DNA of 64,000 bases, taken from positions 186,001 to 250,000 of the forward strand of contig NZ_LJWX01000001.1 of assembly GCF_001431705.1 (NCBI RefSeq), written 5' to 3'. Below the pieces are notes generated by a model. The model worked only from the letters and a program-made list of their open reading frames with translations. It was not told the origin of the DNA and made no database searches. Source of the DNA: Ferrovum sp. JA12. Its GTDB lineage: Bacteria > Pseudomonadota > Gammaproteobacteria > Burkholderiales > Ferrovaceae. This document shows, piece by piece, positions 19,388 to 43,509 of this stretch; within the stretch, counting starts at the first letter, position 1; each line of letters begins with the position of its first letter. A program made the position numbers and the translations under genes.

Positions 19388-19499
19388 GGTCACTCCCGAT
19401 TTATCCCTAGAGCAGGGTATTGTTATGAATTAAGTGTAACTGAGTCAGCCTTTATTCTCAATCACCGAACTCAACTAACTTTCAGCCATGACCTATAGG

Positions 19500-19806: not shown

Positions 19807-20373
19807 ATGATTATCAATAAAAGTGAAACACAACCTTTAGTTAAATTTTTAGTGGTGTCTGCCCTTTCTTTTTTGGTAGGGACCATTCATGGTATGTTAC
19901 AAGTGATGCCCCCCATTAGGGCTTGGCTTGATTCCATAGGTAGTCCCTATGGCGGGCCCGGTCATATGATTGATCCTCTGGCCCATGCGCACATGAATTT
20001 GGTGGGCGGAGTAGTTATGCTAGCCATGGGGGCAACCTTCTATCTGTTACCACAATTCTCCGGTAAGAAACTGTACTCCAAGAAGCTGGTTTCTTATACG
20101 TTTTGGTTTACCGTAATGGGTGTCTACAGTTTTTACACCATTCTCATGGTCTTTGGTACCTGGGAAGGTTATCTAATGCTTCACGATCGTGAGATGTTAA
20201 GACAAGTTCATCAACATTATTACAGTCCACTGATGGCCTTATCTGGGACTTGTATGGCCATTGGTTTTCTTTTTTACTTCTTGAATATTGTATTAACTTT
20301 GGTTAAGTCCCCTAAAGCTATTGAGTCAACTTCAAAGGAAAACGTAGTTCGCCCACTGCATTTTCGTGCTTAA
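19807..20373 (+). CDS. Short haem-copper-oxidase subunit I-like membrane protein
   Basis: A 188-residue protein with four or five transmembrane helices. The core DPLAHAHMNLVGGVVMLAMG aligns with helix II of CcoN-type oxidase subunits (where a His binds the low-spin haem), followed by YLLPQ...LYSKKLVSYTFWF as in helix III. Helices VI, VII and X with the CuB and haem b3 ligands are absent, so it cannot be a normal oxidase catalytic subunit. A second His group (HQHYY) precedes the last helix. It may be a small cytochrome b or an accessory subunit. It is a homologue of the gene at 41923. Its 3' end overlaps the converging lipoprotein gene by 56 bases. Confidence 0.75.
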   Translation: MIINKSETQPLVKFLVVSALSFLVGTIHGMLQVMPPIRAWLDSIGSPYGGPGHMIDPLAHAHMNLVGGVVMLAMGATFYLLPQFSGKKLYSKKLVSYTFWFTVMGVYSFYTILMVFGTWEGYLMLHDREMLRQVHQHYYSPLMALSGTCMAIGFLFYFLNIVLTLVKSPKAIESTSKENVVRPLHFRA

Positions 20374-26777: not shown

Positions 26778-27224
26778 TTACTGTGTTGGTTTCTTCTTAT
26801 ACAAAAGATTCTTATCTCTTCTGCCATAAGTTCTTTTATTAATGACTTCACCCACCACCCCACCGATCATTGCTGATTCCATAATTAAAATCAGAAAGAA
26901 TCCCCACCAGCCTATGGGTTCGCGAGACATATGATCAGGAAGGGGACTATTCACCACTTGATAGAGCGCCATCACTCTAACCAATAGCGGAGGAAAGACA
27001 GCTAACCATTTACCCCCACCACCAAAAATGTAGGCCACGATGATTCCCGCCAAAAAGGGTAAAATAAACACGGCGGCAATCCAAGCAAAGCTAAAATAAG
27101 CAATACCATTAAATAACTCAATGTGTGAATCTAGTATCACATCACCAAAATGTAACAGCGCCGCCGCCACTCCAAAGGCAATAAAACCTTTTAATAAGCG
27201 ATCCTCTTGTTTTCTGTTATTCAT
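26778..27224 (-). CDS. Unknown four-helix membrane protein in the oxidase operon
   Basis: A 148-residue protein with about four transmembrane helices and a basic C-terminal tail (NKRTYGRRDKNLLYKKK). Its ATG overlaps the stop codon of the upstream cytochrome gene by one base (TAATG), so translation is coupled. No motif recognised; probably a structural or assembly subunit. Confidence 0.6.
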   Translation of the reverse strand: MNNRKQEDRLLKGFIAFGVAAALLHFGDVILDSHIELFNGIAYFSFAWIAAVFILPFLAGIIVAYIFGGGGKWLAVFPPLLVRVMALYQVVNSPLPDHMSREPIGWWGFFLILIMESAMIGGVVGEVINKRTYGRRDKNLLYKKKPTQ

Positions 27225-27712
27225 TAGTTTTTATAGGTTTTACCAGTTAGTTTTTCGTATTCCATTTTCTTTGTTTGCTCTAAATACCAGTCTTGAACTT
27301 TGAGACTAGCCATATATTGAGCAAGAACACGTCTATCATGCTCTGACAGGGATGCGTAAGAGGGCATACTGTACTGTTTTTTTAGTCGGCTTGGTAATAT
27401 TGTCTGAGGACTAACAGCTGAGAAATAATTATAAAACCATTCCTCTGTTCGTATTGACCCTATCCCATCAAGGGCAGGAGCAGGAACTGTTTCCATCATA
27501 TTTTTAACAGTCCATAAAGAATGACATTGACGGCATCCTTGAACTCTATAGATATCAGAGGCCTCACGCATCAGGTGATGATTGGCTGTCGTATAAAAGG
27601 GAATACCTTTATCTGGTTGCTTTTGTGTTTCAATTGTAAAAACATTTCTCGCCATCACAGCTAACACAACCACTGCCATGACGGCATAAATTATTTTCTC
27701 ACCACGTCTCAT
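27224..27712 (-). CDS. Membrane-anchored monohaem cytochrome c of the oxidase cluster
   Basis: A 162-residue protein: an RRGEK lead, a transmembrane anchor (residues 7-25), one haem site CRQCH (60-64) and the probable distal ligand Met116 in SMPSYASL, then LSEHDRRVLAQYM as in CcoO/NorC-type cytochromes. It could replace the haem domain that is missing in the CcoP-like subunit at 28551 and feed electrons to CcoO. It overlaps the upstream gene by 4 bases. The gene at 41335 encodes a parallel protein with the same layout. Confidence 0.85.
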   Translation of the reverse strand: MRRGEKIIYAVMAVVVLAVMARNVFTIETQKQPDKGIPFYTTANHHLMREASDIYRVQGCRQCHSLWTVKNMMETVPAPALDGIGSIRTEEWFYNYFSAVSPQTILPSRLKKQYSMPSYASLSEHDRRVLAQYMASLKVQDWYLEQTKKMEYEKLTGKTYKN

Positions 27713-29252: not shown

Positions 29253-30194
29253 CTACTTAAGATTTAAAATAAAATCAATTAAATGTCTTGCGTCACTATT
29301 TGATGCATACATAGGTACTTCTGGTGGGTAAATACGCTTACCTTCAGTGTACTCGCTGTACGCTTTACGCCATTTATCATAATCAATAGGCTTACCGTTT
29401 GCATCAACCTTACCCCATAAATAGTCAAAACGAGGCATAATTGAATGTGGTTGCACCAGTCTTGGATTAAAGAAGTGCAACATTAACCATTCTTTTGATG
29501 CATTTCTTGAACCGACATGTAATAAATCTGGTGCTTTACGATCAGAACCAAACGCTGTTGGAGACTCACCATTAAAATCACCTAACATGGGAGGAGCACC
29601 AAATACTTGCCAATCTTGTGTTTGTTCTGGCAAGAGTGTGTGACACCACCAGCAACCCTCACGTACAAAGATTGATTTACCAGCACTGGCGTAGTAAGTG
29701 TTCGCATCACCGGCTGCTTTTAATACTTGCTCGGGATTCCATCCACGCGTAGCTGTGGCGTCTTCAATATAGTATTGTTTTTGATCGTTAGACCTCACCA
29801 AGAAAACAGCACCTTGATCCTTATTAGCCTCATTAATATGCCCATCATTAATACTAAGTTTCTCTGATACTTTACCTAGGTTCCCAGGGTGTATAACACC
29901 ACCAGGGAAAGGAGTACCCTTTTCATAAACATAGGCCGTGGTTGCTTCCATGGGTTGGCCTGTTTTAGGGTCAGTTTTCAGAATCACTTTTTCTGGACGA
30001 TGCCATCCCAGTAATAATGGATCATCTAAACTAAACCCAGACTCATGACCCGCCCAAAGTTGCTTATCTAAAGCTACCTCGGTTGCGCTAACGGAGGAGA
30101 TATCAAAACTTGGCAATAGCAGTGTAATCGTCATTGATCCACCTAATGCTAGAGCAAAGAAACGGGCTCCGACTTTATATTCTCTAAAATTCAT
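29253..30194 (-). CDS. ccoO: cbb3-type oxidase monohaem cytochrome c subunit (CcoO)
   Basis: A 313-residue protein with an N-terminal membrane anchor and a periplasmic cytochrome domain. The haem site is CWWCH (181-185) within SIFVREGCWWCHTLLPE; the segment GSDRKAPDLLHVGSR and the distal ligand Met253 in HSIMPRFDYL follow the CcoO pattern. It is longer than usual, with an inserted region between anchor and haem site. CcoO accepts electrons from CcoP or soluble cytochromes and passes them to the haem b of CcoN. A GAGGT site precedes the ATG. Confidence 0.9.
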   Translation of the reverse strand: MNFREYKVGARFFALALGGSMTITLLLPSFDISSVSATEVALDKQLWAGHESGFSLDDPLLLGWHRPEKVILKTDPKTGQPMEATTAYVYEKGTPFPGGVIHPGNLGKVSEKLSINDGHINEANKDQGAVFLVRSNDQKQYYIEDATATRGWNPEQVLKAAGDANTYYASAGKSIFVREGCWWCHTLLPEQTQDWQVFGAPPMLGDFNGESPTAFGSDRKAPDLLHVGSRNASKEWLMLHFFNPRLVQPHSIMPRFDYLWGKVDANGKPIDYDKWRKAYSEYTEGKRIYPPEVPMYASNSDARHLIDFILNLK

Positions 30195-30223: not shown

Positions 30224-31630
30224 TTAACGTTCGTAAGCCAATTCATGGGGCATACGACCTTGTGGAACTTCTGTACCTTCACGAGCTGTCATCCACATAT
30301 TGTAGAGCCAGAAACAGTTACCGATAAACACTAAGGTACCACCAATCCAACGTGCAATCATGTAAGGATGTTCTGCTATGACCACGTCGATATAAGGCAC
30401 CTCATAAATCTTACCTGCTCCCTGAATCAAACCTGCGATAGTCATGGAAACCCAGTAAGTGGTGAACCCAATAAGTAGTAACCAGAAATGTATGTTGGCT
30501 AAGGTTAATGAATACAACTTACGGCGCATCATACTTTGCAAGCCTAAATAAACTGCCGCTGCTTCCAGGAATGTTGAGAAACCCAACAAAGCTAAATGAG
30601 CGTGAGCTACGATCCAACCTGTACCATGAATGTACCAGTTAATGGCACGGGTTTGTTGGAAACCACCTTGCATATTTAATGGTATTGCCATTAAGCAACC
30701 CGTAACGGTAAATCTAACTTCAATATTTTCAACAAACATATTCCATTTACCTTGCATAGTCAGCAAGATATTTGATACGAAGGCAATGGCAGGCACTAAA
30801 ATCAGCACACCTTCAACTGAGGCAAAAGACTTAAGCCACTCAGGTAATGGAGCAGACATTAAGTGGTGAGCCGCTGGGGTTGAGTAGAACACAACCACTG
30901 ACCAGAAATGTAAGTGTCCAATTCTATGTGAATACAAGGGATTACCTGTCACTTTTGGAATTGTGTAGTACGCAATTGCAGCGGCAACTGGCGTAATCCA
31001 CAAACCAAGCACATTATGAGCAAACCACCATGTTAAGTAGGCTTCTGTTAAACCAGTTAAATGGAAAAACTCTGGCAAGTTTCCAACTGTAAATACGATA
31101 GCTAACATGAAAGTCGCTGCAGCGAAAAACCAATTAGTGGTATAAATACCTTGCGTTCTACGATTAATAATCGTCATCCATACGTTTATACCAAGTGGTA
31201 CAACCATAAAGGTAATGATGTATAAGTCAATAAACCAGGGGAAATCTGAATACTCACGACCAGAGGTCATTCCAGCCCAAAGCACTGTCAAACCTAAAGA
31301 CAAACCAATGTTCCAGAGGAAAGCATTCCAAAGTCCTAACTTCTCCGACCACAATCTCGTATTACCTAAGGCTGGCGTTATATACATCATAGCCATACCA
31401 AAAGCCATTGATATCCAACCAAAAATAACTGCGTGAACGTGAACCTGACGCATGTGACCAAAAGCCAAAAACTCATATCCCGTCACAAAATCAGGAAAAG
31501 CCAATTTAGCAGCATTGAAAGAACCCAAACCTGTTCCGATCACAAACCAGACAATGGCTGAGAACCCCCAGTAAACTGCTGATGCACCATGAGGTATATC
31601 CTCATTTTTAGCCAGCAAATATTTAAACAT
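30224..31630 (-). CDS. ccoN: cbb3-type cytochrome c oxidase catalytic subunit (CcoN)
   Basis: A 468-residue, roughly 12-helix haem-copper oxidase subunit I. Visible ligands: His64 in helix II (low-spin haem b), His205 in helix VI and His255-His256 in helix VII (CuB), His343 and His345 in helix X (haems b3 and b). Tyr249 lies six residues before the HH pair, the position of the cross-linked tyrosine in cbb3 oxidases, which argues for oxygen reduction and against a nitric oxide reductase. The ATG at 31630 has an AAGGGGG site; a GTG two codons earlier is less likely. The subunit set around it is non-standard (no haem-bearing CcoP). Confidence 0.93.
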   Translation of the reverse strand: MFKYLLAKNEDIPHGASAVYWGFSAIVWFVIGTGLGSFNAAKLAFPDFVTGYEFLAFGHMRQVHVHAVIFGWISMAFGMAMMYITPALGNTRLWSEKLGLWNAFLWNIGLSLGLTVLWAGMTSGREYSDFPWFIDLYIITFMVVPLGINVWMTIINRRTQGIYTTNWFFAAATFMLAIVFTVGNLPEFFHLTGLTEAYLTWWFAHNVLGLWITPVAAAIAYYTIPKVTGNPLYSHRIGHLHFWSVVVFYSTPAAHHLMSAPLPEWLKSFASVEGVLILVPAIAFVSNILLTMQGKWNMFVENIEVRFTVTGCLMAIPLNMQGGFQQTRAINWYIHGTGWIVAHAHLALLGFSTFLEAAAVYLGLQSMMRRKLYSLTLANIHFWLLLIGFTTYWVSMTIAGLIQGAGKIYEVPYIDVVIAEHPYMIARWIGGTLVFIGNCFWLYNMWMTAREGTEVPQGRMPHELAYER

Positions 31631-31686
31631 CTTCACTACCCCCTTAATTGTTTCTTCATTGTTTCATTTACAGAACTACATATTAG

Positions 31687-31856: not shown

Positions 31857-32132
31857 CTAGGCTAAATTTTCAAGGGCATTATGACGTTTTAGAGAAATTG
31901 CCAATAACGCAACATAAGCAAATCCAAAAACAAACATACACCAATCAATAAACCCTGTAAAAGTAGAGGGGACAAAAGCCCAACTCATCCAACCACCCCA
32001 ATCCTGGAATTTGCCACGGCCTGCAAAACACATTACTGTCGCACCGAATACACTGCCGTTACCCATTCCTGTGAGCATACCACCGACAATCATTACCCAG
32101 AATCCGCGCTCTCTAATTGATTTTTTTTGCAT
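31857..32132 (-). CDS. Small two-helix membrane protein at the head of the oxidase operon
   Basis: A 91-residue protein with two or three hydrophobic stretches, rich in Gly and Trp in the loop between them (GKFQDWGGWMSWAFVP). It is the first gene behind the internal promoter at 32262-32290. No family recognised; its constant neighbours suggest a structural or assembly role for the oxidase or for ACIII. Confidence 0.6.
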   Translation of the reverse strand: MQKKSIRERGFWVMIVGGMLTGMGNGSVFGATVMCFAGRGKFQDWGGWMSWAFVPSTFTGFIDWCMFVFGFAYVALLAISLKRHNALENLA

Positions 32133-32330: not shown

Positions 32331-33335
32331 CTACCTAATTAAATGATTTCTTTTAAATGCCCTTCTCATGATTAAGTAGGCTATACCAAATACAATGATG
32401 GTTGAGCCAAGATCAAACATACCCGTCATAGGCATGTGATGAGTAGGATAAGTCCCGGAAATCCAGGTGTACCTCTCAATCCAAGTTCCAATTACTATAG
32501 ACGATGCAATTAACGCGATTGCACTAGGGTTTTTCCTATTGAATGGGAACACCAGCATGACGAAAGGAAAGACAAACTTCATAACAAAGAATGTCCAAAA
32601 CAAACCGCCATATGGTCCGTTTTGCATTAAAAATATACGATCTGTTTCATCTCCAAAATTAGCATACCAAATAATTAAATATTGGCCAAAAAATGTATAC
32701 ACCCATAAGATGGAAAACCCTAACATCATTTGCGCAATGTAATTATAAAGATAACTGCCAGGGGATTTAATAAACAAGCCTGCCTTATCTAAAAAATAAA
32801 CCGTGATTACCAATACGCCAAGATACATACCAAAGACGCTGACGAAGTGATAAATCGAGTACATAGAACTTTCCCAACTGGGCAACAGCGTCATTTCAAA
32901 ATCCCAGGCCACCATCGTGCAAAAGAGGACATGCACAAAAGGGATTACCCCTGCAACCCATCGAAAATTATGACTCGCATCCGGGTTGGATTCTGCCTTG
33001 GCCTGAAGTCTAACAAAAGAACCATAGACTAACCCTACTATAATAAACCCAAGTATTTCTCGCGTTGCTAAAAAGGGTAAATTATTCCAAGCAGGTAATT
33101 TACCGTATCCCCCAACCCAAGGAAAGGTTAACTTACCGCCATAAAGTAAAATTAACAGTAATATAAAAGCAAGCGGATAAAGTGAAAAAAACGATACCGA
33201 AATAACCCGTATGTCAAACCGCCACTTTGCCCCAACCAAATGCAATAAAGCTGACAGCATGACTCCCGCCAACGATAAATGTAAAATAATAAGAAAATCT
33301 ACGGTCAGAACTGACCAACTAGAAAAAGAAATCAC
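32331..33335 (-). CDS. actF: Alternative complex III subunit ActF (NrfD-like membrane protein)
   Basis: A 334-residue polytopic protein (about nine or ten helices) matching ActF, the second NrfD-like subunit of alternative complex III: a HLVGAKWRFDIR loop, WVAGVIPFVHVLF, MVAWDFEMTLLPSWESSMY, and a C-terminal IERYTWISGTYP as in quinol-handling NrfD relatives. Translation starts at GTG behind GGGGGAGG. It follows actE by 24 bases and closes the act gene set. Confidence 0.88.
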   Translation of the reverse strand: MISFSSWSVLTVDFLIILHLSLAGVMLSALLHLVGAKWRFDIRVISVSFFSLYPLAFILLLILLYGGKLTFPWVGGYGKLPAWNNLPFLATREILGFIIVGLVYGSFVRLQAKAESNPDASHNFRWVAGVIPFVHVLFCTMVAWDFEMTLLPSWESSMYSIYHFVSVFGMYLGVLVITVYFLDKAGLFIKSPGSYLYNYIAQMMLGFSILWVYTFFGQYLIIWYANFGDETDRIFLMQNGPYGGLFWTFFVMKFVFPFVMLVFPFNRKNPSAIALIASSIVIGTWIERYTWISGTYPTHHMPMTGMFDLGSTIIVFGIAYLIMRRAFKRNHLIR

Positions 33336-33359
33336 GCTGCCTCCCCCTTTATAAATCTA

Positions 33360-33908
33360 TTATTTTGCTGAACCAACTGTATTTTTTTCTTGAGCAGCTT
33401 TTTTATCATCAGCAACCAAACCGTGTCTTACATAATTCACTACATCCCATCTCTCTTTTGGATACATATCATTGCCATAGGATGGCATTAAAGCACCACC
33501 AAAAGTGATGTGCGCAAAAATATATCCTTCTGGCGCTATTTTTTGTACATTCTCTGATGTTAGATCAAAAGGACGAACTAAAAGCTTAGCACCCACTAGA
33601 CCATCCCCAGTCCCTGATACACCATGGCAAGGCACGCAATAAATTTGAAATAATTCACGGCCATGGTTAATGGACTGTGCAGTAGCTTGATTAGGATTTT
33701 TTAATTTCATCGCCTCATCATGTGTTTTAATAAATGGCGTAGTTTGCGTGCCAGCCATGGGAATAGAGGTTTGTGGGAAGGGACGAACAGACTGTGGTCC
33801 CTCTTGAGGCTTAATACTAATTTGGTTAGCCATATCACGACTCCACGGCCAAGCAAAAGCAAGACTTGGTAATAATGCGGTCATGGTAAAGAGAGTAGCT
33901 CTTTTCAT
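33360..33908 (-). CDS. actE: Alternative complex III monohaem cytochrome c subunit ActE
   Basis: A 182-residue exported cytochrome with a signal peptide (ending AFA-W), a proline-rich lead, one haem site CVPCH in FQIYCVPCHGVSGTGDG and a distal Met in GALMPSYG. ActE forms the haem exit from ACIII towards soluble cytochrome, HiPIP or an oxidase. It overlaps actD by 4 bases. Confidence 0.93.
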   Translation of the reverse strand: MKRATLFTMTALLPSLAFAWPWSRDMANQISIKPQEGPQSVRPFPQTSIPMAGTQTTPFIKTHDEAMKLKNPNQATAQSINHGRELFQIYCVPCHGVSGTGDGLVGAKLLVRPFDLTSENVQKIAPEGYIFAHITFGGALMPSYGNDMYPKERWDVVNYVRHGLVADDKKAAQEKNTVGSAK

Positions 33909-34429
33909 TTTTTTTCCTCCCCAAGAATTTCTAACGAATGATGTTTTTTAAAAATCTCATTAATAACAGGAATACTGGTGTCTTCTGCTTTCACTAGTAT
34001 GCCAATTTTGTCTTCGCTTACCCGAGTGTTATACAGAGGACTTCTATTCCCCGGCAGTTTCCAACCAATAAAACAACCTATCACCGTCATCAGTACGCCT
34101 GACAGAATAAAGAACTCATAAGTGAGTACCATATCAGGAGGGATTGGCACCACTGGCCTTCCTCCACGAATTTGATAAATAAAAGAGGCTTGCGCAGAGG
34201 CCACTAAAGTTAAACCCGTTATTGGACCAAACAACACTCCAACCAAGGTAAACAACTGCACATAAACGGGTCTCTTGCCCAGTTTCTCAGATAACTCTGG
34301 GTGTTCAATAGGAGATTTAATCACTACATCTTTCATGCTGAAACCGGGCAGCTTGGTATTATTTAACTCATCTAACACGAGCCCAGCTTCCTCCATATTG
34401 TTATACAGAGCGAGTAAGTATGATTTCAT
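33905..34429 (-). CDS. actD: Alternative complex III subunit ActD (DUF3341)
   Basis: A 174-residue protein with an N-terminal soluble domain starting YLLALYNNMEEAGLVLDEL, then two transmembrane helices and a soluble tail. Length and layout agree with ActD. It shares one base with the end of actC and overlaps actE by 4 bases. Confidence 0.92.
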   Translation of the reverse strand: MKSYLLALYNNMEEAGLVLDELNNTKLPGFSMKDVVIKSPIEHPELSEKLGKRPVYVQLFTLVGVLFGPITGLTLVASAQASFIYQIRGGRPVVPIPPDMVLTYEFFILSGVLMTVIGCFIGWKLPGNRSPLYNTRVSEDKIGILVKAEDTSIPVINEIFKKHHSLEILGEEKK

Positions 34430-35847
34430 TATGCTACCCCTTTCGCTTTGAGCATTTTGCTTTGGTCGTGAACCATCTCTTTCACTTCATACATAGAAAT
34501 CGTTGGGAAAATCTTGCAGTAGAGCATGAACAGCATGGTGAACCAACCAAAACTTCCCGCTACGATGCCGAACTGTACCCAACTTGGCCACCATCCTGAA
34601 GTCCAAGTCCAAGGATATTGAGAATGCCCAAAAGTAGGGGTGATAATTTGTATTCGCTCAAGCCACATTCCAAAATTCAATATGATAGAAACCACCATTA
34701 ATGTAGGTAAATGTGTTCTGACAAACTTGATTAATAATGTAAAAGGCATGACAGTAGAACAAAATACCATTCCCCAAAAAACAGGGGCATAGGTGCCTGT
34801 CATTTTGTCAAGTAATTGCTGTTTTGCAATTTCATTTGCCCCGTACCACACAGTCGAGTATTCAATCAGATTTAAATAATTCCATACCATAGCTATGGCA
34901 AAAGTCATTTTGATTAATTTATTCAAAATCGGCATTGTCATATACGCTTCGAATCGAAAGACGTATCGCAATAAAATAAATAAAGTAATAATGACAGAGC
35001 ATCCTGAATACAAAGCCCCTGCGACAAAGTAAGGAGGGAAAGATGTAATGTGCCATCCAGGGTTTTGTGAGACAGCAAAATCGGTTGACACAATAGAGTG
35101 CACTGATACGGCAAGAGGCATCAAAAAGCAAGCTAATGTCATATAAGTCACTCTGAATGTAGCCCATTGACGATCAGTACCCTGCCAACCTAATGACATA
35201 AATGTATAAAGCTTTTTCCTCGCTCCAGTTGCATTGTCTCGACAGATTGCAAGATCAGGAACCATTCCTGTGTAGAGAAACAACAATGAGGAAGTTAAAT
35301 AAGTACCTATAGCCGTTGCATCCCATACCAAAGGAGAGCTAAAGTTTGGCCACACCCATCTCTCGTTGGGATAAGCCACTACGTAATAAAACTGCCAAAC
35401 TCGACCTAAGTGTATTAACACAAAGAGGGCGGCGGTCAACAAAGAAAAGGTCGTCATTGCTTCTGCATAACGGTAGATAGGTTTCCGCCAGTCTGCATGA
35501 ATGATATGTAGAAGGGCTGATAACAGTGTGCCCGAGTGCCCCATGCCAATCCAAAAAATAAATGTCGCAATATATAAACCCCACACTTGAGGATTATTCA
35601 AATCAGCAACACCCAACCCATTGTCATACTGGTATTTTTCGCAATATACACCAAAAGAAAACAGTGCCATCGCAGCAAAAAATATGACCCAAAATATTGG
35701 TCTTGGACGGTCTAAACTACGTAAAACATCCTTATTAATTTGCGCCCAACTGACGTCTTTATCAATATCCAGGTCCTTTGGAACGAATTTTTTCTCTATA
35801 TGTATTTCGTTATCATCCGGCACATCATGCTTGATCATATGACTCAT
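34429..35847 (-). CDS. actC: Alternative complex III membrane subunit ActC (NrfD family)
   Basis: A 472-residue protein of about ten helices. It contains WGLYIATFIFWIGMGHSGTL, LSALLHIIHADWRKPIYR, HLGRVWQFYY, and VSVHSIVSTDFAVSQNPGWH, all characteristic of ActC, which with ActF forms the quinol-oxidising membrane part of ACIII. It follows the Fe-S subunit by 49 bases and has a GAGAGGAAA ribosome site. Confidence 0.95.
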   Translation of the reverse strand: MSHMIKHDVPDDNEIHIEKKFVPKDLDIDKDVSWAQINKDVLRSLDRPRPIFWVIFFAAMALFSFGVYCEKYQYDNGLGVADLNNPQVWGLYIATFIFWIGMGHSGTLLSALLHIIHADWRKPIYRYAEAMTTFSLLTAALFVLIHLGRVWQFYYVVAYPNERWVWPNFSSPLVWDATAIGTYLTSSLLFLYTGMVPDLAICRDNATGARKKLYTFMSLGWQGTDRQWATFRVTYMTLACFLMPLAVSVHSIVSTDFAVSQNPGWHITSFPPYFVAGALYSGCSVIITLFILLRYVFRFEAYMTMPILNKLIKMTFAIAMVWNYLNLIEYSTVWYGANEIAKQQLLDKMTGTYAPVFWGMVFCSTVMPFTLLIKFVRTHLPTLMVVSIILNFGMWLERIQIITPTFGHSQYPWTWTSGWWPSWVQFGIVAGSFGWFTMLFMLYCKIFPTISMYEVKEMVHDQSKMLKAKGVA

Positions 35848-35896
35848 AAAATTTCCTCTCTCCCTTATCCCTTACCGAGACCTATTATTTATTTCC

Positions 35897-36745
35897 TTAT
35901 GCTTCTAAATCTCTCACACGCTCTAAATACACCACTGACGGATAAGTCCTAAATTCTTCAAAAATTCGATATCCTCTTAAGTTTTCATCTTTCTTTTGCT
36001 CATCTTTCTCAAGGGCTATTTGCTGATTTTTCCATTTTTTGGCCACTTGTGATTGTGGGTTAGCAAGATTACCAAAAGTGATTGCAGAGGTGGGGCAAGC
36101 TTGAGCACAGGCCGTCGTTACTTCTCCATCGCGCACCAAACGTCCATCTGTTTTAGCATGATCCATGGACTCTCTTAATCGTTGCACACAAAATGTACAT
36201 TTCTCCATAACCCCTTTACTTCTCACTGAAACATCAGGATTGAGTTGTAACTCTAATGGATTAGGCCAGGCTGTATCAGCATATTGCCACCAATTAAAAT
36301 AGCGAACTTTGTAAGGACAATTGGCGGAACAATAACGAGAACCCACACAACGGTTATAAACTTGTGTATTAAGTCCGTCAGCTGAATGGTGCGTGGCGCC
36401 AACAGGACATACCACTTCACAGGGAGCCGCTTCACACTGCTGACACATCATAGGTAAAAACTGAGCCCCCCTATCTGGTACCATATCAACAGGAACGCTT
36501 TCACCCTCCCCCCAATATCGTTCAATACGCAACCAATGCATAGCATGACCTTTCTCATACCTTTCCTTCCCTACCACTGGTAAATTGTTTTCTGCATAGC
36601 ATGCAGTTGTACAAGCATTGCATCCTGTACAGGCGTCTAAATCAATCACCATGGCCCACTTATAATCAGCATTCTTATACTGATCTAAATAAGGACGACG
36701 GGACCTGAAACTTGTCCAATTTTTTATTAAATTATTTAAAGACAT
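35897..36745 (-). CDS. actB2: Alternative complex III iron-sulfur subunit (C-terminal half of ActB as a separate protein)
   Basis: A 282-residue ferredoxin-like protein with four cysteine motifs: CTGCNACTTAC, CQQCEAAPCEVVC, CVGSRYCSANC and CTFC...CAQAC, matching the NrfC-type Fe-S domain that forms the C-terminus of ActB. In described complexes the molybdopterin-like and Fe-S parts are one polypeptide; here they are two genes. The ATG stands behind a perfect AAGGAGGT Shine-Dalgarno that lies in the last codons of the upstream half, so this is a real start and not a frameshift. Confidence 0.93.
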   Translation of the reverse strand: MSLNNLIKNWTSFRSRRPYLDQYKNADYKWAMVIDLDACTGCNACTTACYAENNLPVVGKERYEKGHAMHWLRIERYWGEGESVPVDMVPDRGAQFLPMMCQQCEAAPCEVVCPVGATHHSADGLNTQVYNRCVGSRYCSANCPYKVRYFNWWQYADTAWPNPLELQLNPDVSVRSKGVMEKCTFCVQRLRESMDHAKTDGRLVRDGEVTTACAQACPTSAITFGNLANPQSQVAKKWKNQQIALEKDEQKKDENLRGYRIFEEFRTYPSVVYLERVRDLEA

Positions 36746-36747
36746 GA

Positions 36748-38973
36748 CTACACCTCCTTACTTAATTCTGCTTTATCAGCTGCCATAGTTGCGACGAGTT
36801 TCCTTCCCTGTTGCAATGTAGTTGGACCTTCATCTTTGACAACCTTTTCATTGAGAGCAGTTTTAGTGACTTGAACCCTAGTTGCGAACAATGCTAACTC
36901 ACCTGTCTTTTCATCTGTGATAGGGTTAATAATTTTGAAAGGATTAACCCCTCGATTGGACGCATATCTTCCGTATGCTGTATGTCCCTGTCCAAAGGGG
37001 ATGGAGACCGTATTGGGCTGAATTCCAGGAAACAAATAAGCTTTAGCCAAAACAGATCCCATGGATGATTTGATTTCTAAAATATCCCCTTCACGAACTT
37101 GCATGTCCTGTGCAGTTTTAGGATTAATTTCAACCCATGAATCCCATACAACCGTAGTCATAGGGTCCGGTGACTCTTGTAACCAGGGAAGGTTAGCATG
37201 TCGACCGTCGCGCATATCTGCTTTTACTGAAGGCACAAAATAAAATGGATAGTTAACGTCTTCAGGATGAGTCTCAACCTTAGGTAAATTTACTGACTCA
37301 ATCTTTACTTTATCAATTTGCGCTTCTTTGAGAGGGACATGCAATACCCCGTTCATTAATGCACTATCCCAAAAATCATCATCGCTTAAAGTTGATTTAA
37401 AAACCGGTTTAGATTTCACTACAGCTTCTCTAATGTAAGAATAATAATCAGGATATTTACTGTAGCTTTTCTCATCACGTTCTTTTAACAATGTTAACAA
37501 CACATCACCAAAACTCTTGGTATGCGCATGAAGCTTTTCCATTAAAGGTTGCTGAATGCCGATTTCAATAGCCTCTGGTTGATAACTGGCAAGATGAGTA
37601 CCAAACTCTTCCACAGGTGAGAGTAAAGGTAAAACGACGTCGCATAACTCTGCTGTCTCATCAAGCTGAGTAACCATTGCTATTTTTAGAGGAACGTTAC
37701 TTAATTTATTTTTTAGTTCAATAAAAGCTGGAGCGGTATAAACTGGATTAACCCCCATCATGAATAACACTTTTACATTCTTAGCATCTAACTGATTATT
37801 TAGAGCCACTAAACCTTGGTAGTTACCATTGACATGCGTCATTTGCGGAAACGGATTTTCCATTGGCGCCGTCACTGTTTTTCCAACATTACCCAAAATA
37901 ACGTTTAATAACTCAATGGCGTAAGCATTCTGATAACCCTGTTGGTGCCCCTCTGCAGACAACCCGGACAACACCAATGTAGGCGTTTTTTCCCACATCA
38001 TGGCGATCAAGTGTCCAATGGCATCTGGATTTATTCCTGTTATTTGGCCCACAGTATACTTATCGTAAGCTTTAAGTGATTCGGTTAATTCTGTTGGTAG
38101 CGTCGTGTCATACTCAGGATGCTGGATTAATGCATTCGCGAGACCTAAAGCAAAAACTCCTTCTGTACCTGGGCGTATGGGATACCAACGATCTGCATTA
38201 CCTCCTGTTAAGGTCATACGTGGCTCTATCTGAATTAACGTACCACGAGGGGCTTTTCTAAATTGAGCATATTGATTTGCAAGATAAACAGGAGAGACTC
38301 CGGCACCCAGAAAATCATTACCAAATGAGAGAATCAATCTGGCTTCTTTTATTTTATGTACAGGATTAGTGTACCCATAAATATTTTCCCTAACTTGGTC
38401 ACCAACTTGAGTGGACAGGGAGTCATAGGCAATATGATTTTTCGAATCATAACTTTCTAAAAAGTTGTTAATTAATACCTTTTGATGGCCACTGACACTG
38501 TTAGTAAGAAATACAATTTCATTCCCTTTGATTCGACTGTCTTTACCTAACCCATCATTAACTATTTTCATAGCCTGGTCCCAGGATGCAGTTACTAATT
38601 TACCACCCTCTCTAATCATTGGGGTAGTTAAACGATCAGGGTTATATTGCAACTGAATACTGGCTTGACCTAAACCGCAAATTTTTCCATTACTTATAAT
38701 TGAATTAGGGTTCCCTTCTAATTTTAGTACTCTACCCTCTCTCACTCGACCCATAACACCGCAATGAGAAGGACATTGAGTACAAGTTGATGCATAAAAA
38801 ACGCTATTACCAGGAACTACAAAATCCTCTGGCTGAACATAGGACTGAACTTTTTCTACACCCGACTCAATGGAAGTGTTCCCACATCCTGCAAGCGTTG
38901 CCGCAGCCCCACTTATACCTAATATTTTAAGGAAATCTCTGCGTTCTACTATTGGTCTTTTTTCTGCTGCCAT
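36748..38973 (-). CDS. actB1: Alternative complex III molybdopterin-oxidoreductase-like subunit (N-terminal half of ActB)
   Basis: A 741-residue protein. The N-terminus has a twin-arginine motif (ERRDFLKI) and a lipobox-like LAGC. The body follows the molybdopterin oxidoreductase fold, which in ACIII binds no molybdenum. The classic cluster motif C-x2-C-x3-C-x27-C (CTQCPSHC ... KIC) is fully kept. I chose the ATG at 38973 because a GGGGGAGAG site precedes it and the Tat signal begins there; the longer start at 39054 would overlap actA. Confidence 0.93.
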   Translation of the reverse strand: MAAEKRPIVERRDFLKILGISGAAATLAGCGNTSIESGVEKVQSYVQPEDFVVPGNSVFYASTCTQCPSHCGVMGRVREGRVLKLEGNPNSIISNGKICGLGQASIQLQYNPDRLTTPMIREGGKLVTASWDQAMKIVNDGLGKDSRIKGNEIVFLTNSVSGHQKVLINNFLESYDSKNHIAYDSLSTQVGDQVRENIYGYTNPVHKIKEARLILSFGNDFLGAGVSPVYLANQYAQFRKAPRGTLIQIEPRMTLTGGNADRWYPIRPGTEGVFALGLANALIQHPEYDTTLPTELTESLKAYDKYTVGQITGINPDAIGHLIAMMWEKTPTLVLSGLSAEGHQQGYQNAYAIELLNVILGNVGKTVTAPMENPFPQMTHVNGNYQGLVALNNQLDAKNVKVLFMMGVNPVYTAPAFIELKNKLSNVPLKIAMVTQLDETAELCDVVLPLLSPVEEFGTHLASYQPEAIEIGIQQPLMEKLHAHTKSFGDVLLTLLKERDEKSYSKYPDYYSYIREAVVKSKPVFKSTLSDDDFWDSALMNGVLHVPLKEAQIDKVKIESVNLPKVETHPEDVNYPFYFVPSVKADMRDGRHANLPWLQESPDPMTTVVWDSWVEINPKTAQDMQVREGDILEIKSSMGSVLAKAYLFPGIQPNTVSIPFGQGHTAYGRYASNRGVNPFKIINPITDEKTGELALFATRVQVTKTALNEKVVKDEGPTTLQQGRKLVATMAADKAELSKEV

Positions 38974-39019
38974 GGCTCTCTCCCCCGTATCTATACTTTC
39001 TTGCTTTTTTACAGGCATC

Positions 39020-39637
39020 TTATTTATGGCACATCCAACAATCATTGGGGCCATTTGTTGTTTTTAAATTAACTTTGCTAATTTGATGATCTTTTTTGTG
39101 GCAATCAATACACCATCCCATAGAAATCGCTTTAACTCGTCTTGCAGTGGTCATATTGGCTACGTCTCCATGACAATACCCACATACCTCTCTCACCGGA
39201 CGTTTATCTTGAAAGTAAAATCTTTGAATATGTCGCTCATGATTAAATCGAACAAAATCTGGTAAATCATGTACTTTTTTCCAGGGAATAGAGATATGGT
39301 TATCCCAGTACCAGAATAGTTTTTTAATTCTAGGGCGATCCCGTACCTCAGGAATCATTTTATGACAACCAATACATTTATCTAAACGAGGAATTCCTGA
39401 TACGGCGCTTCTTCTAGCATAAGTATGACAATACATGCAGTTGATTTTCATCACATTAGCATGAGTGTAGTGAGGAAACTCAATGGGCTGTTCTACTTTA
39501 GGACCAAGAGCATTGTAGCCATCTATAGTTTGAGTACCGGGCGCCCCCCCAGGATGAAATGCCTCCGCATGACCTAATTGAGCCAGCATTGAAAACAAAA
39601 TACCAAAAAAGAAAAGTTCTATTTTTTTTATATTCAC
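39020..39637 (-). CDS. actA: Alternative complex III pentahaem cytochrome c ActA
   Basis: A 205-residue exported cytochrome with five CxxCH sites: CMYCH, CIGCH, CGYCH, CIDCH and CWMCH, the number expected for ActA. The N-terminus is a signal or anchor helix ending near GHAEA. I chose the GTG at 39637, behind GAGGAGGAG, over an ATG at 39697 that would put charged residues ahead of the signal. It is the first gene of the act operon. Confidence 0.95.
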   Translation of the reverse strand: MNIKKIELFFFGILFSMLAQLGHAEAFHPGGAPGTQTIDGYNALGPKVEQPIEFPHYTHANVMKINCMYCHTYARRSAVSGIPRLDKCIGCHKMIPEVRDRPRIKKLFWYWDNHISIPWKKVHDLPDFVRFNHERHIQRFYFQDKRPVREVCGYCHGDVANMTTARRVKAISMGWCIDCHKKDHQISKVNLKTTNGPNDCWMCHK

Positions 39638-39864
39638 GTCAATCTCCTCCTCAAAGATTAGACTTTTGCAAGATTTAGTTGTTTTTTTGCAACGCAAAAA
39701 AATTCAACCCTAAAAAACACTTGCGTTAACAATAATTATTATTTATAGTGCAAGAATCCCCAAATTTTGCTTTTTTTTATGATAAAAATGCAACTCATTT
39801 TATTTAAACTGTGCATCTTTAAGTTAATCGTTAAATTTAATTCAGATTGGACAAAACGTTAGAG

Positions 39865-39910: not shown

Positions 39911-40198
39911 TTAACCAGCTTTTTGAACGAAACCGTTGCAATAGCAGTTTTGGCAAATCTCATCATCTCCTGGATAAAGCTTACAACCACTATGGTTTAA
40001 ATCAGCCTTAGGCAAGAAGTTCATACAAACTGCACAATGCTTAGCACCGTTTGGTTTGGTTTGAAATTTAAGAGCAGCACGAACAGCGGTGTTTTGATGC
40101 GCTGATGCTGAAGTTGATAAGCCAACTAGAGGAGCTGCAACTAAAGCAATTGAGCCCATCTTTAATAGTTGACGACGTGATAGTTTAATGTCTTCCAT
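39911..40198 (-). CDS. High-potential iron-sulfur protein (HiPIP)
   Basis: A 95-residue precursor with a Tat signal (LSRRQLLKMG, cleavage near ASA-H). The mature part has the HiPIP cysteine spacing: Cys55, Cys58, Cys72 and Cys87 for one [4Fe-4S] cluster, with the usual GCKLYPG and YCNGF segments. HiPIPs are soluble periplasmic electron carriers to oxidases or reaction centres, and relatives (Iro) occur in iron oxidisers. Two further cysteines (82 and 85) next to the last ligand are unusual. It is divergent from cytochrome c4 and followed by its own terminator. Confidence 0.93.
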   Translation of the reverse strand: MEDIKLSRRQLLKMGSIALVAAPLVGLSTSASAHQNTAVRAALKFQTKPNGAKHCAVCMNFLPKADLNHSGCKLYPGDDEICQNCYCNGFVQKAG

Positions 40199-40527: not shown

Positions 40528-41271
40528 ATGTATAAATCAATAAAAATCGCTAGCCTTACAGTAGCTTTATTTTCTTCATTATTTTCCGGTTTCGCTATGG
40601 CTGAGGGTATACCAATGGACGGAAACCCTGCAAACGGAAAACAAATTTTCATGAACGGTAAGGGTCCTGTTGTTGCTTGCATGACCTGTCACGGTCCCAC
40701 TGGATGGGGAACAGAAGCAATGGGAGCGCCTCGATTAGCTAACCTCGGCTATCCTTATATCGTTAAACAACTCACTGATCTAGCGGAAGGACGTCGTGTT
40801 CCACAAGGTGCTGGCGCAGTTATGCCCTATTTTGCTAGTCAATTAACACCTCAAGAAAGAAAAGATATCGCCGCCTACGTGAACACGTTAAATACCACAC
40901 CGGAACTTTCTGATTTAAAAGATATCCAATCAAGTGGACAGCCTGTAGGTGTTCGATACAAGGGTGAGATTCTAGTTAAGTATGGTGTGAGTGGAAAGGT
41001 ATCAGCTTGCGTCTCCTGTCATGGTTACAATGGGCGCGGTGCACCACCCGTCTTCCCAGTAATTGGTCAACAAAAATTCACTTATCTTGTTAATCAGTTA
41101 CACAACTGGAGAGATAAAAGCCGTAATAATGACCCATATCAAATGATGGAAGTGATTGCTAGTAAGTTAACGGATCAAGATATACTTGATGCAGCAACCT
41201 ACCTTGCCACTGCACCTAGAACTACAGATGGTGGTAGTGACTACACTTCATTTAGCGCGAAAACACAGTAA
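40528..41271 (+). CDS. Dihaem cytochrome c4-type protein
   Basis: A 247-residue exported protein with a signal peptide (ending AMA-E) and two homologous cytochrome domains, haem sites CMTCH and CVSCH. Distal Met candidates lie in VMPYFASQL and in the DPYQMMEVI region. Cytochromes c4 shuttle electrons from quinol-oxidising complexes to cbb3 oxidases, which fits the neighbourhood. A strong terminator follows. Confidence 0.93.
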   Translation: MYKSIKIASLTVALFSSLFSGFAMAEGIPMDGNPANGKQIFMNGKGPVVACMTCHGPTGWGTEAMGAPRLANLGYPYIVKQLTDLAEGRRVPQGAGAVMPYFASQLTPQERKDIAAYVNTLNTTPELSDLKDIQSSGQPVGVRYKGEILVKYGVSGKVSACVSCHGYNGRGAPPVFPVIGQQKFTYLVNQLHNWRDKSRNNDPYQMMEVIASKLTDQDILDAATYLATAPRTTDGGSDYTSFSAKTQ

Positions 41272-41291: not shown

Positions 41292-41322
41292 AAAACCCGC
41301 GCTTTAGTGCGGGTTTTTTTTT
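41292..41322 (+). terminator. Rho-independent terminator after cytochrome c4
   Basis: AAAACCCGC pairs with GCGGGTTTT with a small loop, followed by a run of nine or more T. The next gene starts only about 15 bases later on the same strand, so partial read-through may control the 41335-43509 genes. Confidence 0.92.
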
Positions 41323-41334
41323 AAGAGATTAACT

Positions 41335-41907
41335 ATGGCAACAAATAAGTTTAGAGTTGGTGAGAAGGTACTGTTTGGTGTTATTGGCCTCATTGCAGTA
41401 TTTGCGATTGTTAGTTTCATTGGTTTAGAAATTTATCGATCCAAGCTTAAACACCCCATGTATCAAATAAATGATAGTTTTACATTTACCGAGGCGGGGC
41501 TTAGAGGTTCAGTATTATTTCGAGACAGAGGATGTACCAGTTGTCATAGGGCTGTGAGAAATGGTACTAATAACGGGGTAGATTTAGATGGAGTGGGTAC
41601 AAAAAGAAATTTTGTATACTTACTGAAGTTTCTACACAAACCTGAAGCTACCTATGACGCTAAAACGGTTGACCATGGTCCTTTTAAAGAAGCCGCATAT
41701 GTTTCAAATCTACCTGATAAAGAATTAAACGATTTAGCAACTTTCTTGTCAGAACTAAAAGCAAGACAAGGGGCTGCCGATTCGCCAATGCCCATGCCAG
41801 AGCGTTCAGGGTTTGTTGACGAAATGGTGAGTATTTGGGCACCAAAAAACTGGAAAAAAGAACACAAAGATCTTAGAATAGAAGCTGGAGAGCCACCAGC
41901 TAAATAA
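41335..41907 (+). CDS. Membrane-anchored monohaem cytochrome c paired with a short oxidase-I-like protein
   Basis: A 190-residue protein: an RVGEK lead, a transmembrane helix (about residues 11-34), one haem site CTSCH (67-71) and a segment LDGVGTKRNFVYLLKFL that mirrors the cytochrome at 27224. Where that paralogue has its distal Met (MPSY), this one has Ala or Glu, so the sixth haem ligand must be another residue or absent. The C-terminal tail is extended and charged. The arrangement with the next gene recalls NorC followed by NorB, but with a drastically shortened partner. Confidence 0.85.
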   Translation: MATNKFRVGEKVLFGVIGLIAVFAIVSFIGLEIYRSKLKHPMYQINDSFTFTEAGLRGSVLFRDRGCTSCHRAVRNGTNNGVDLDGVGTKRNFVYLLKFLHKPEATYDAKTVDHGPFKEAAYVSNLPDKELNDLATFLSELKARQGAADSPMPMPERSGFVDEMVSIWAPKNWKKEHKDLRIEAGEPPAK

Positions 41908-41922
41908 CATGGAGAAATAAAA

Positions 41923-42510
41923 ATGACAACCGCTCGTCCCTATCATGCAGAAATTTATCATCCAGACTATACTCGTTATACCCTTTTATTTGTTTACGCC
42001 TGCGTCACCTATGCCATTATTGGCTTCTCTTGGGGCGCCATTATGGGAGGAATCCCAGCTCTGAGGAACTTCGTGGACTACGCCCCTCACGGTAAACTGA
42101 TCCTTCTTGCACATGGTCATATTAACCTGTTAGGTTGGGTTGAAATGGCAATTTTTGGTGCAATTTATTATGTCATCCCACGTCTTGTTAACCGTCCAAT
42201 ATATAGTCTGAAATTAGTCAAGGTACATTTTTGGATTCATAATGTAGGCTTAATGGGCATGGTTGTTCTTTTCACTGTGGCAGGCGCAATTGGCGGATAC
42301 ACACCTGATGAACACAGCGAGAGAATGGTCAGTCACTTAATGGCTGGGGTAGGCATCTTTGGCACTCTGGTATTACTTGCCAACATTATTTGGGGATACA
42401 ATATTTTCAAAACAGGTAAAAAAGGTCCTGATTCTGTCATGATCAACGAAGTCAAAACAGAAACCAGGGTTAATCCTTCCTTTTCGACTAATAGCTTAGT
42501 TAACTCCTAA
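41923..42510 (+). CDS. Short haem-copper-oxidase subunit I-like membrane protein
   Basis: A 195-residue protein with about five helices. LLAHGHINLLGWVEMAIFGA matches helix II of CcoN/NorB-type proteins including the haem-binding His, followed by YYVIPR and KLVKVHFWIHNVG. The CuB and high-spin haem ligands of helices VI, VII and X are missing. Another His (MVSHLMAG) precedes the final helix and could complete a bis-His haem b site (inference). A homologue is at 19807. The gene follows the anchored cytochrome by 15 bases and is surely co-expressed. Confidence 0.78.
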   Translation: MTTARPYHAEIYHPDYTRYTLLFVYACVTYAIIGFSWGAIMGGIPALRNFVDYAPHGKLILLAHGHINLLGWVEMAIFGAIYYVIPRLVNRPIYSLKLVKVHFWIHNVGLMGMVVLFTVAGAIGGYTPDEHSERMVSHLMAGVGIFGTLVLLANIIWGYNIFKTGKKGPDSVMINEVKTETRVNPSFSTNSLVNS

Positions 42511-42542: not shown

Positions 42543-43052
42543 ATGAAAAACTTTATCCTTTCAACCATCTCAATAACAAGTGTTACCTTGTTATTGGGAT
42601 GTACGCCAACGAGCCGTCTTCATGTGGGCTCTGAAGCTCCTAAAATCCGTACTAAAACACTGCAGGATGTAGGCGGGGATATGGCAAAAATAACAACTTA
42701 TCGTCAACCTGATAAACGTATGTATCAATACTCACTTGATCAGGCTTTAAAAAGTGGTAAGCCTATAATGCTTGAGTTTGCGACACCCGGTCACTGTACT
42801 GTGTGTGATCGCCAACTTCAAGAAGTGAAGGCTTTATTAGATAAGTACCAAGGTCAAGTTATTTTTTTACACATGGATCAATATGAAAACCCTGATGCTT
42901 TTAAGGCTTATAAAGTCATGGGTGACCCATGGAACTTCTTTATTGATGCTAAAGGAATTGTTCGTTACGAACAACCCGGACCGATGTTAATGAATGAGAT
43001 GGATTACGCTATCAAAAATATGTTAGTAGCATCAGATAAAGTTAAACATTAG
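42543..43052 (+). CDS. Thioredoxin-fold lipoprotein
   Basis: A 169-residue protein with a lipoprotein signal (lipobox LLGC) and a thioredoxin-like domain containing CTVC in LEFATPGHCTVCDRQ, then VIFLHMDQYENPDAF and DPWNFFIDAKG. It could reduce apocytochrome or copper-site thiols in the periplasm, similar to TlpA or SCO partners. It follows the short oxidase-like gene by 32 bases and probably helps to mature it. Confidence 0.8.
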   Translation: MKNFILSTISITSVTLLLGCTPTSRLHVGSEAPKIRTKTLQDVGGDMAKITTYRQPDKRMYQYSLDQALKSGKPIMLEFATPGHCTVCDRQLQEVKALLDKYQGQVIFLHMDQYENPDAFKAYKVMGDPWNFFIDAKGIVRYEQPGPMLMNEMDYAIKNMLVASDKVKH

Positions 43053-43053
43053 C

Positions 43054-43509
43054 GTGTCAAACAAACTCTTTAGTTTAAAACAGGATAAGCAAGGCCTCGT
43101 ATGGGATCTAATGTTATACATTCCTACGGTGGTAGCTCTTTTTGGTCTTTCAGCTAGCTTCTGGTTTCAAAAAAACCCCTACTTAAGTTATTTGCTTTTA
43201 TTTCTGGGTAGTTTCTTTACTTTGGCGGGGACAAACCGCATCCTTAAAACACGTTTGATGATTTTGCCCACTTCGCCTGTCTCTTTAGAGGTAAATAATG
43301 CAGGAAATCAGGTTGGTATAAAATTAAAAAACGGAAAAACCGTTGAGCTCATTAAGCAGGTAAAATTCTTCAGGGATCTATCAGGAAAAAGTATAGGATT
43401 ATCAGGGCTTGATGGAACAGGACGCTTGCAACAATACGTTTTACATAAAGGTCAGTTTTTAACTGAAAAAGACTATGAATCTTTAACCAAACTATTTATT
43501 AAGAGTTAA
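43054..43509 (+). CDS. Unknown membrane protein with cytoplasmic domain
   Basis: A 151-residue protein beginning at a GTG right after the preceding stop codon. It has two helices in the first 65 residues and a beta-rich soluble C-terminal domain. No motif recognised. It is the last gene of the cytochrome/oxidase-like plus-strand unit and overlaps the next, converging gene by 4 bases. Confidence 0.55.
   Translation: MSNKLFSLKQDKQGLVWDLMLYIPTVVALFGLSASFWFQKNPYLSYLLLFLGSFFTLAGTNRILKTRLMILPTSPVSLEVNNAGNQVGIKLKNGKTVELIKQVKFFRDLSGKSIGLSGLDGTGRLQQYVLHKGQFLTEKDYESLTKLFIKS

Follow-up and report, generated by a model that had tools for sequence, protein, structure and literature searches.

A four-helix, single-unit homologue of haem-copper oxidase subunit I accompanies an anchored cytochrome c and one clade of cbb3-type oxidases

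Introduction

In haem-copper oxidases, the HxH motif of helix 10 holds haems on both of its faces. Single-unit proteins as a kind were already described in 2014, when Pei et al. reportedly introduced the four-helix haem-copper oxidase homology proteins (HCOH). These are said to be closest to TM9-12 of CcoN and NorB, to resemble all three oxidase units and to carry a conserved His in helix 2, and their families were reportedly linked mainly to denitrification and NO. The protein described here, miniB, is like the HCOH proteins in being a separate gene, in having four helices, in its closeness to TM9-12, in its likeness to all three units and in its helix 2 His. It is unlike them, as they are described, in being tied to one cbb3 clade, in having a constant cytochrome c partner and in being accompanied by a second single-unit protein.

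To our knowledge, no cytochrome is linked to YgdD, a four-helix protein of E. coli. YgdD has been proposed as an oxidase relative and is predicted to form a homotrimer, and it is likened to miniB here by that description; the accessible text of the source considers a homotrimer of four-helix subunits that has the fold of the oxidase core, and cites Pei et al. on the evolutionary units of the superfamily (PMC4602095). Pei et al. are also cited in the accessible text of PMC11218638, PMC12329440 and PMC10790758. Another family of four-helix size is DUF2871 (PF11070, 134 aa, function unknown); by title, none of the papers found to name DUF2871 deals with single-unit oxidases.

Some iron oxidizers and a biocathode bacterium have cbb3 oxidases from which canonical subunits are missing, with cytochromes and hypothetical proteins without an assigned role around them, according to the accessible parts of PMC4725956 and PMC5371394. 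For the cbb3 oxidase of Ferrovum strain JA12, only subunits I and II were found, and co-localized cytochromes were suggested as substitutes for subunit III (PMC4725956). In the parts available, a homologue of Cyc1 was located alongside the cbb3 cluster and expression of proximal ccoN and ccoO rose in Fe(II)-citrate (PMC8788666), and three hypothetical genes and a polyferredoxin were noted in a region syntenic with Mariprofundus (PMC5371394). The accessible literature searched, including papers most of which concern oxidases or electron carriers of iron oxidizers (PMC7029218, PMC4643136, PMC6443915, PMC10734462, PMC4725956, PMC5371394, PMC8788666, PMC10879576, PMC3179512, PMC10654088 and PMC8250860), does not name miniB, which within that scope is not proof that the protein is unpublished.

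The gene pair

The pair lies in a 64,000-nucleotide stretch of DNA from Ferrovum sp. JA12 (contig NZ_LJWX01000001.1, positions 186,001 to 250,000; hereafter the window), in a genome of 2.0 Mb and three contigs. Two open reading frames on the forward strand, cytA (41335..41907) and miniB (41923..42510), are separated by +15 bp and encode proteins of 190 and 195 aa. A preliminary description of this DNA had placed both frames correctly. It had read them as an anchored monohaem cytochrome c and a compact, NorC/NorB-like or cytochrome-b-like membrane haem protein that passes electrons between quinone and cytochrome c, or else a mimic of the oxidase with a part in assembly or regulation, had proposed structure prediction and the occurrence across genomes as checks, and had named a lack of conserved His residues as evidence against its reading. 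Among the best 80 of 142 loci, cytA was found at 79, always upstream of miniB and on the same strand (79/79), with a median gap of −4 bp by longest-ORF starts. The single exception, L054, is explained by a contig that starts about 200 bp before miniB.

The cytochrome assignment of cytA stands: the protein matches PF00034 (E 1.7e-8) and has one CxxCH motif and an N-terminal hydrophobic stretch. Among the best 80 of 142 loci, C67xxC70H71 and H114 are invariant in all 77 rows of at least 150 aa, the window included, and Met164 is kept in 74 of these 77. The family of the oxidase cluster's own monohaem cytochrome c (27224..27712, reverse strand) is related to cytochrome A (hhalign E 1.3e-17), and the Met of that cytochrome has no counterpart in cytochrome A in the alignment. 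Because H114 is invariant and that Met is without a counterpart, bis-His coordination of the haem c of cytochrome A is a reasonable guess from sequence. None of the Pfam and NCBIfam models matching cytochrome A at E up to 1 is named NorC, a comparison made at the level of family models.

Likeness of miniB to one unit of oxidase subunit I

MiniB matches the COX1 family (PF00115) with an E value of 2.6e-16, above the curated cut-off, over profile positions 312-408 of 436, and therefore corresponds to the end of the oxidase and not to its beginning. A comparison of profiles by hhalign, built from 107 miniB rows (duplicates included) and from 38 CcoN sequences of the linked oxidase, gave the same picture: the best alignment was to the last third of CcoN (columns 329-456, E 4e-13), followed by the middle (5e-6) and the first third (3e-5), and these three best alignments are the three successive CcoN units. 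When the CcoN units were cut apart, they matched one another with E values of 0.046, 0.028 and 4e-4 and were matched by miniB with 3.8e-6, 7.1e-7 and 2.5e-15, a closer relationship that is favoured by the greater depth of the miniB profile.

Additional evidence came from structure prediction. A model built on 41 diverse orthologues is a confident four-helix monomer (pLDDT 89.9), with long helices at residues 14-43, 58-88, 96-126 and 130-166. The top-ranked fold match of this model is 3mk7_A, residues 299-463 (Z 17.1, rmsd 2.2, 152 residues); other oxidases and NO reductases are tied with it within one Z unit, nearly all of them aligned over the same last part. Foldseek matched the model to CcoN chains with E values of about 1e-4, and its matches to non-oxidase entries (a V-ATPase subunit, LTC4 synthase and others) were weak. 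Among solved relatives compared by sequence, the CcoN subunits of cbb3 oxidases (E 1.8e-14 to 9.4e-13) came ahead of NorB (2e-9). As judged by sequence profiles and predicted fold, miniB corresponds to a single one of the three repeats that make up haem-copper oxidase subunit I, and it resembles the last four helices of that subunit (CcoN TM9-12). The preliminary description, which had equated miniB with only the first helices of subunit I, was thus mistaken on this point; it was right about the missing CuB ligands, which belong to a unit that miniB does not have.

These features place miniB relative to the described families. It resembles the last four helices of CcoN (3mk7, 6xkw, 9g6b) both in fold and in sequence and has an HxH at the position of H345/H347; CcoN has 12 helices and six ligand His, CuB ligands included, whereas miniB has four helices, or one unit of three, and lacks the CuB unit. 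NorB belongs to the same superfamily and is a weaker match (4xyd, E 2e-9); it is a 12-helix subunit with an FeB site, and miniB has no FeB ligands because it has four helices only and no second unit. As an independent four-helix gene, most like helices 9-12 of subunit I and recognizably similar to its other two units, miniB agrees with the single-unit HCOH proteins, which are further described as assembling into homo- or heterotrimers in the manner of the oxidase core. With a limit of E 0.1, 40 of the 41 miniB members match DUF2871, the best of them at 4.5e-6; the window protein, at 18.3 bits against a curated Pfam cut-off of 27.4, falls outside that family.

Conserved histidines

In a sequence alignment, H64 and H66 of miniB are opposite H345 and H347 of the CcoN of 3mk7, which we take from the 3MK7 literature to be the ligands of haem b3 and haem b, respectively. 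An earlier reading, in which the helix II His was kept and the haem b3 ligand absent, is not borne out by this alignment. A b-type cytochrome holds a non-covalent haem by axial ligands, and in miniB the HxH stands where such ligands would be. H64, H66, E74, H102 and H106 are each unchanged in all 117 distinct sequences that cover them. These sequences were gathered by similarity only (151 matches in 150 loci, 118 distinct, of which the partial L027 does not cover the positions). The same five residues are present at 80/80 loci among the best 80 of 142. Another set of 112 rows, collected by the pattern HxH[V/I]N and containing duplicates and four non-orthologous rows, is circular for H64 and H66 and was not used for this count. 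With H64 and H66 conserved, the test that the preliminary description had set for its own reading did not refute it. Further His residues conserved in miniB lie early in helix 3 (H102 and H106). An extra His ahead of the last helix, singled out earlier, is not conserved: the position of H131 is His in 4 of the 117 distinct sequences, and H138 varies. In the alignment, nothing in the last CcoN unit of the cluster corresponds to E74 or H106.

MiniB forms a discrete family. The score gap to full oxidases is wide both in the class sample (E at most 7.8e-67 for miniB, against 6.8e-23) and in the phylum sample (6.6e-81 against 1.4e-20), and 43 columns are invariant across the 41 diverse orthologues, an alignment in which H64, H66 and N68 are not independent since its rows were picked by the HxH[V/I]N pattern; the four non-orthologous rows (one from L043, two from L088 and one from L091) were left out of it. 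This conservation excludes chance as the origin of miniB.

The proposal that the pair is NorC/NorB-like finds no support in these comparisons, since the nearest solved relatives of miniB are the CcoN subunits of cbb3 oxidases, ahead of NorB, and cytochrome A is kin to the monohaem cytochrome c of the oxidase cluster. A NorCB reading of miniB was rejected on its ligand pattern and nearest relatives.

Gene neighbourhood

Directly downstream of miniB, a gene for a thioredoxin-like lipoprotein (42543..43052, forward strand; PF00578, E 4.9e-7) encodes a CxxC at positions 85/88. Among the best 80 of 142 loci, this gene is always adjacent to miniB and on its strand (80/80), and Cys20 (the lipobox Cys, identified by eye), C85 and C88 are present in 81/81 rows. 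It is followed on the same strand by the gene for a conserved 151-aa protein of no known family (43054..43509), for which no Pfam or NCBIfam match was found at E up to 1; the two genes share their strand in 79/79 cases among the best 80 of 142 loci. On the other side of the pair lies the gene for a dihaem cytochrome c4-like protein (40528..41271, forward strand) with two PF00034 stretches. This gene was found upstream of cytA at 69 of the best 80 of 142 loci, on the same strand in 69/69, and by analogy with the accessible descriptions in PMC8788666 and PMC5371394 its product is a probable Cyc1-type carrier. A terminator-like hairpin with an 11 bp stem and a T run (41292..41317, forward strand) separates the c4-like gene from cytA; the region has four sites of this kind, and shuffled sequence predicts 3.5.

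The partner cbb3-type oxidase is encoded on the reverse strand of the window. Its catalytic subunit, CcoN (30224..31636; COX1, E 3.5e-77), has the six expected ligand His, and H66, H207, H257, H258, H345 and H347 are present in 38/38 CcoN sequences from the best 80 of 142 loci. The gene for the monohaem subunit of the same oxidase, named CcoO-like by eye (29253..30194), follows, and the CcoN-CcoO order is kept across loci. Where miniB and CcoN are both in reach among the best 80 of 142 loci, CcoN is downstream, on the same strand and less than 6 kb away in 36 of 39, and the gene order runs cytA, miniB, thioredoxin-like lipoprotein, 151-aa protein, a 91-aa membrane protein, CcoN and CcoO. In the window, the cytA-miniB block and CcoN are on opposite strands and about 10 kb apart, with genes assigned by eye to an alternative complex III between them, and in genome G424 the distance exceeds 300 kb; co-transcription of the block with CcoN is therefore not general.

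Several other genes of the region were noted. Immediately before CcoN, many loci and genome G184 retain the gene for the 91-aa membrane protein (31857-32132, reverse strand), which is apparently a companion of the oxidase and not of the alternative complex III genes beside it. Proteins that resemble, by eye, a CcoP membrane anchor lacking its haem domain are encoded in the CcoN cluster (28551-29183, reverse strand) and in the CcoG cluster (20721-21134, reverse strand). The oxidase region also has two look-alikes, likewise by eye, of formylglycine-generating enzyme or sulfatase-modifying factor (25702-26766 and 18635-19393, both reverse strand), the former of which is kept in many loci. Adjoining the alternative complex III genes is a gene for an Iro-like high-potential iron-sulfur protein (39911-40198, reverse strand; NCBIfam NF041615, E 2.8e-9, below the cut-off).

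Occurrence across genomes

Across 369 class-level genomes, miniB was found in 34, its own included, spread over 15 family codes and with a wide gap to the next match, a full oxidase; genome G184, whose match is such an oxidase, is not counted among them. A CcoN clade at least 78% identical to the CcoN of the window is present in 31 of the 34 carriers and was not found in any of the remaining 335 genomes (search cut-off E 1e-100; the CcoN of G182, in two pieces, counted as present). The three carriers without it are assemblies of 410-780 contigs. cytA is present in all 34 carriers (G292, where it is in two pieces, included) and, at comparable strength, in 0/40 controls, which are miniB-negative genomes hand-picked from the class sample and not a random draw; G184 has a distant relative at 3.9e-20. 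G184 also has a CcoN 59% identical to that of the window, no miniB, and a protein like the second single-unit homologue, miniA, that is described below.

At the phylum level, miniB was found in 45 of 398 genomes, its own included; the others fall into three family codes, one of them large, probably Zetaproteobacteria by comparison with the record titles of the loci, and several genomes of that large code show full oxidases only. The record titles of the best 80 of 142 loci name Ferrovum or Ferrovaceae (6), Gallionella, Gallionellaceae or Sideroxydans (15), Zetaproteobacteria or Mariprofundaceae (7), Chromatiaceae (5), Ca. Tenderia (1) and Nitrosomonadales (4), and 42 give only Proteobacteria, Beta- or Gammaproteobacteria. 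Many of the named carriers are iron oxidizers.

The link to iron oxidation was assessed with Cyc2. A single Cyc2 query from the same genome was positive in 46/369 genomes, 10 of the 34 carriers against 36 of the 335 others (Fisher p 0.005). A 19-row profile detected Cyc2 in 18/34 carriers against 5/40 hand-picked controls (Fisher p 3e-4), with some matches weak and covering the first part only; this profile leans towards carriers because it was built from matches in eight carriers and only one control. With the same profile, Cyc2 was not detected in 16/34 carriers. In the family of the window genome together with family f38, Cyc2 is present in 31/34 genomes, including five without miniB. As an observation on that family, these five (G008, G013, G018, G022 and G026, all of genus g6) have genomes of 2.2-3.4 Mb. 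Iron oxidation as such does not depend on miniB, since 16 of its carriers have no detected Cyc2 and five g6 genomes have Cyc2 and no miniB; miniB follows its CcoN clade, not Cyc2. As a strict marker of iron oxidation miniB was rejected, Cyc2 being enriched in carriers and not obligate.

A second single-unit protein

The window encodes a second single-unit homologue, miniA (19807..20373, forward strand; 188 aa; COX1, E 2.3e-9), with an H60-x-H62 motif that is invariant in 13/13 aligned sequences. The miniA and miniB families match each other with an hhalign E value of 4.4e-13, and miniA is present in 34/34 miniB carriers and in 1/40 of the hand-picked controls. Its gene adjoins FixH-like and CcoG-like genes, with a Sco-like gene near in the window (all by eye). 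In G184, miniA lies directly before the gene for the 91-aa membrane protein and CcoN, with a Cyc2-like gene on the same strand about 3 kb upstream. This stretch of G184 (L181, 847-10882, reverse strand) has the Cyc2-like gene, several cytochromes, miniA, CcoN, CcoO, small subunits and a thioredoxin-like lipoprotein on one strand, and is a candidate for a compact Fe(II)-to-oxygen gene set.

A tree of the oxidase units, from which two wrong-frame rows (u3_L033 and u3_L034) were left out, has deep supports of 27-41, and AU tests reject neither a grouping of miniB with unit 3 (p 0.47) nor one with miniA (p 0.39). The tree is compatible with miniB either as an ancestral unit or as one split off from the last unit.

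Discussion

The data directly support the homology of miniB to one oxidase unit, its invariant HxH in ligand position, its coupling to cytochrome A and its co-inheritance with one CcoN clade and miniA. The function that we tentatively favour is that of an oligomeric accessory b-type haem subunit of the cbb3-type oxidase of the same region, exchanging electrons with cytochrome A. We infer the haem binding, oligomerization, electron transfer and association with the oxidase in this model because the HxH is unchanged, a cytochrome c is kept alongside and the protein keeps company with one oxidase clade. MiniB would pack with its own copies, with miniA or with both via faces like those joining the three units of CcoN, and haem b would sit at those interfaces, close to the periplasmic face, ligated by H64 and H66 of helix 2. 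Cytochrome A, anchored in the membrane, would pass electrons to or from this haem, and the thioredoxin-like lipoprotein may keep the thiols or haem sites of the module in order. The invariant HxH, the closeness of the cytA gene and the 34/34 co-occurrence agree with the earlier proposal of a compact haem protein in the membrane that is linked to a cytochrome c.

The strongest rival is an assembly factor, in which miniB, perhaps with miniA, helps to insert haem or copper into the CcoN clade or holds half-made CcoN as a stand-in unit and is absent from the mature enzyme. Consistent with this are the association of miniB with one CcoN clade, the CxxC-bearing thioredoxin-like lipoprotein adjoining it at 80/80 loci (best 80 of 142) and the position of miniA beside CcoG-like and FixH-like genes with a Sco-like gene near (all by eye). 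However, the constant partner of miniB is a cytochrome c with a haem of its own, which looks more like an electron-transfer unit, and G184 has the 59% identical CcoN without miniB, though a miniA-like protein is present there. Moreover, cbb3 oxidases outside this clade are not known to need a protein of this kind. On balance, we consider an assembly role somewhat unlikely.

A different role is suggested by the other invariant histidines. H102 and H106, unchanged in 117/117 sequences, lie near the cytoplasmic end of helix 3 if the topology of CcoN applies, and miniB could thus bind haem at the outer face of the membrane (H64/H66) as well as at the inner face (H102/H106) and act as an independent quinone/cytochrome c oxidoreductase that passes electrons from cytochrome A to quinone in uphill transport. 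Cytochrome A, in which H114 is invariant and the usual Met is lacking, would suit a haem of lower potential. Nevertheless, miniB occurs apart from the CcoN clade in only 3/34 genomes, all of them fragmented assemblies, and the His of HFW is also found in the middle and last CcoN units (alignments), where we know of no role for it as a haem ligand. The window also already encodes an alternative complex III (32331-39697, by eye), whose cytochrome matches the model of the related QrcA at 1e-19, below the cut-off; in the accessible parts of the papers concerned, alternative complex III is itself proposed for uphill transport. An independent oxidoreductase is improbable on this evidence.

A further possibility goes beyond the favoured accessory subunit. 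MiniB and miniA may be free-standing thirds of an oxidase core that form, as homo- or heterotrimers, a second core without CuB and with bis-His haems between the subunits; together with cytochrome A, this would be a separate electron-transfer complex beside the cbb3 oxidase or docked on it, and a living example of the oxidase core before fusion. We regard this as speculative and improbable too.

MiniB could also be a structural membrane subunit without haem that replaces the missing membrane part of CcoP and serves only to anchor cytochrome A to the oxidase. A pure anchor, however, would not need invariant H64 and H66, and cytochrome A has a membrane stretch of its own at the N-terminus. This reading draws on the missing subunit III of the JA12 cbb3 oxidase and on the suggestion that co-localized cytochromes substitute for it (accessible text of PMC4725956), and is improbable. 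Finally, a decaying CcoN gene fragment or coding accident, which would account for a length of one third of CcoN, is virtually impossible for orthologues that form a family of their own, set clearly apart from full oxidases by score and with 43 invariant columns, and a decayed CcoN copy was rejected on this conservation.

The strict link of a single-unit protein to one oxidase clade, in company with a second such protein and a dedicated cytochrome, seems to be a new context for proteins of this kind. For cbb3 oxidases with missing canonical subunits, the results define a co-inherited set, comprising the CcoN clade, cytochrome A and two one-third oxidase proteins, with the thioredoxin-like lipoprotein and the 151-aa protein as constant neighbours, that can be purified or deleted together. 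If miniB does bind haem between subunits, it would be a small natural test case for the building of a three-unit oxidase core from one four-helix unit.
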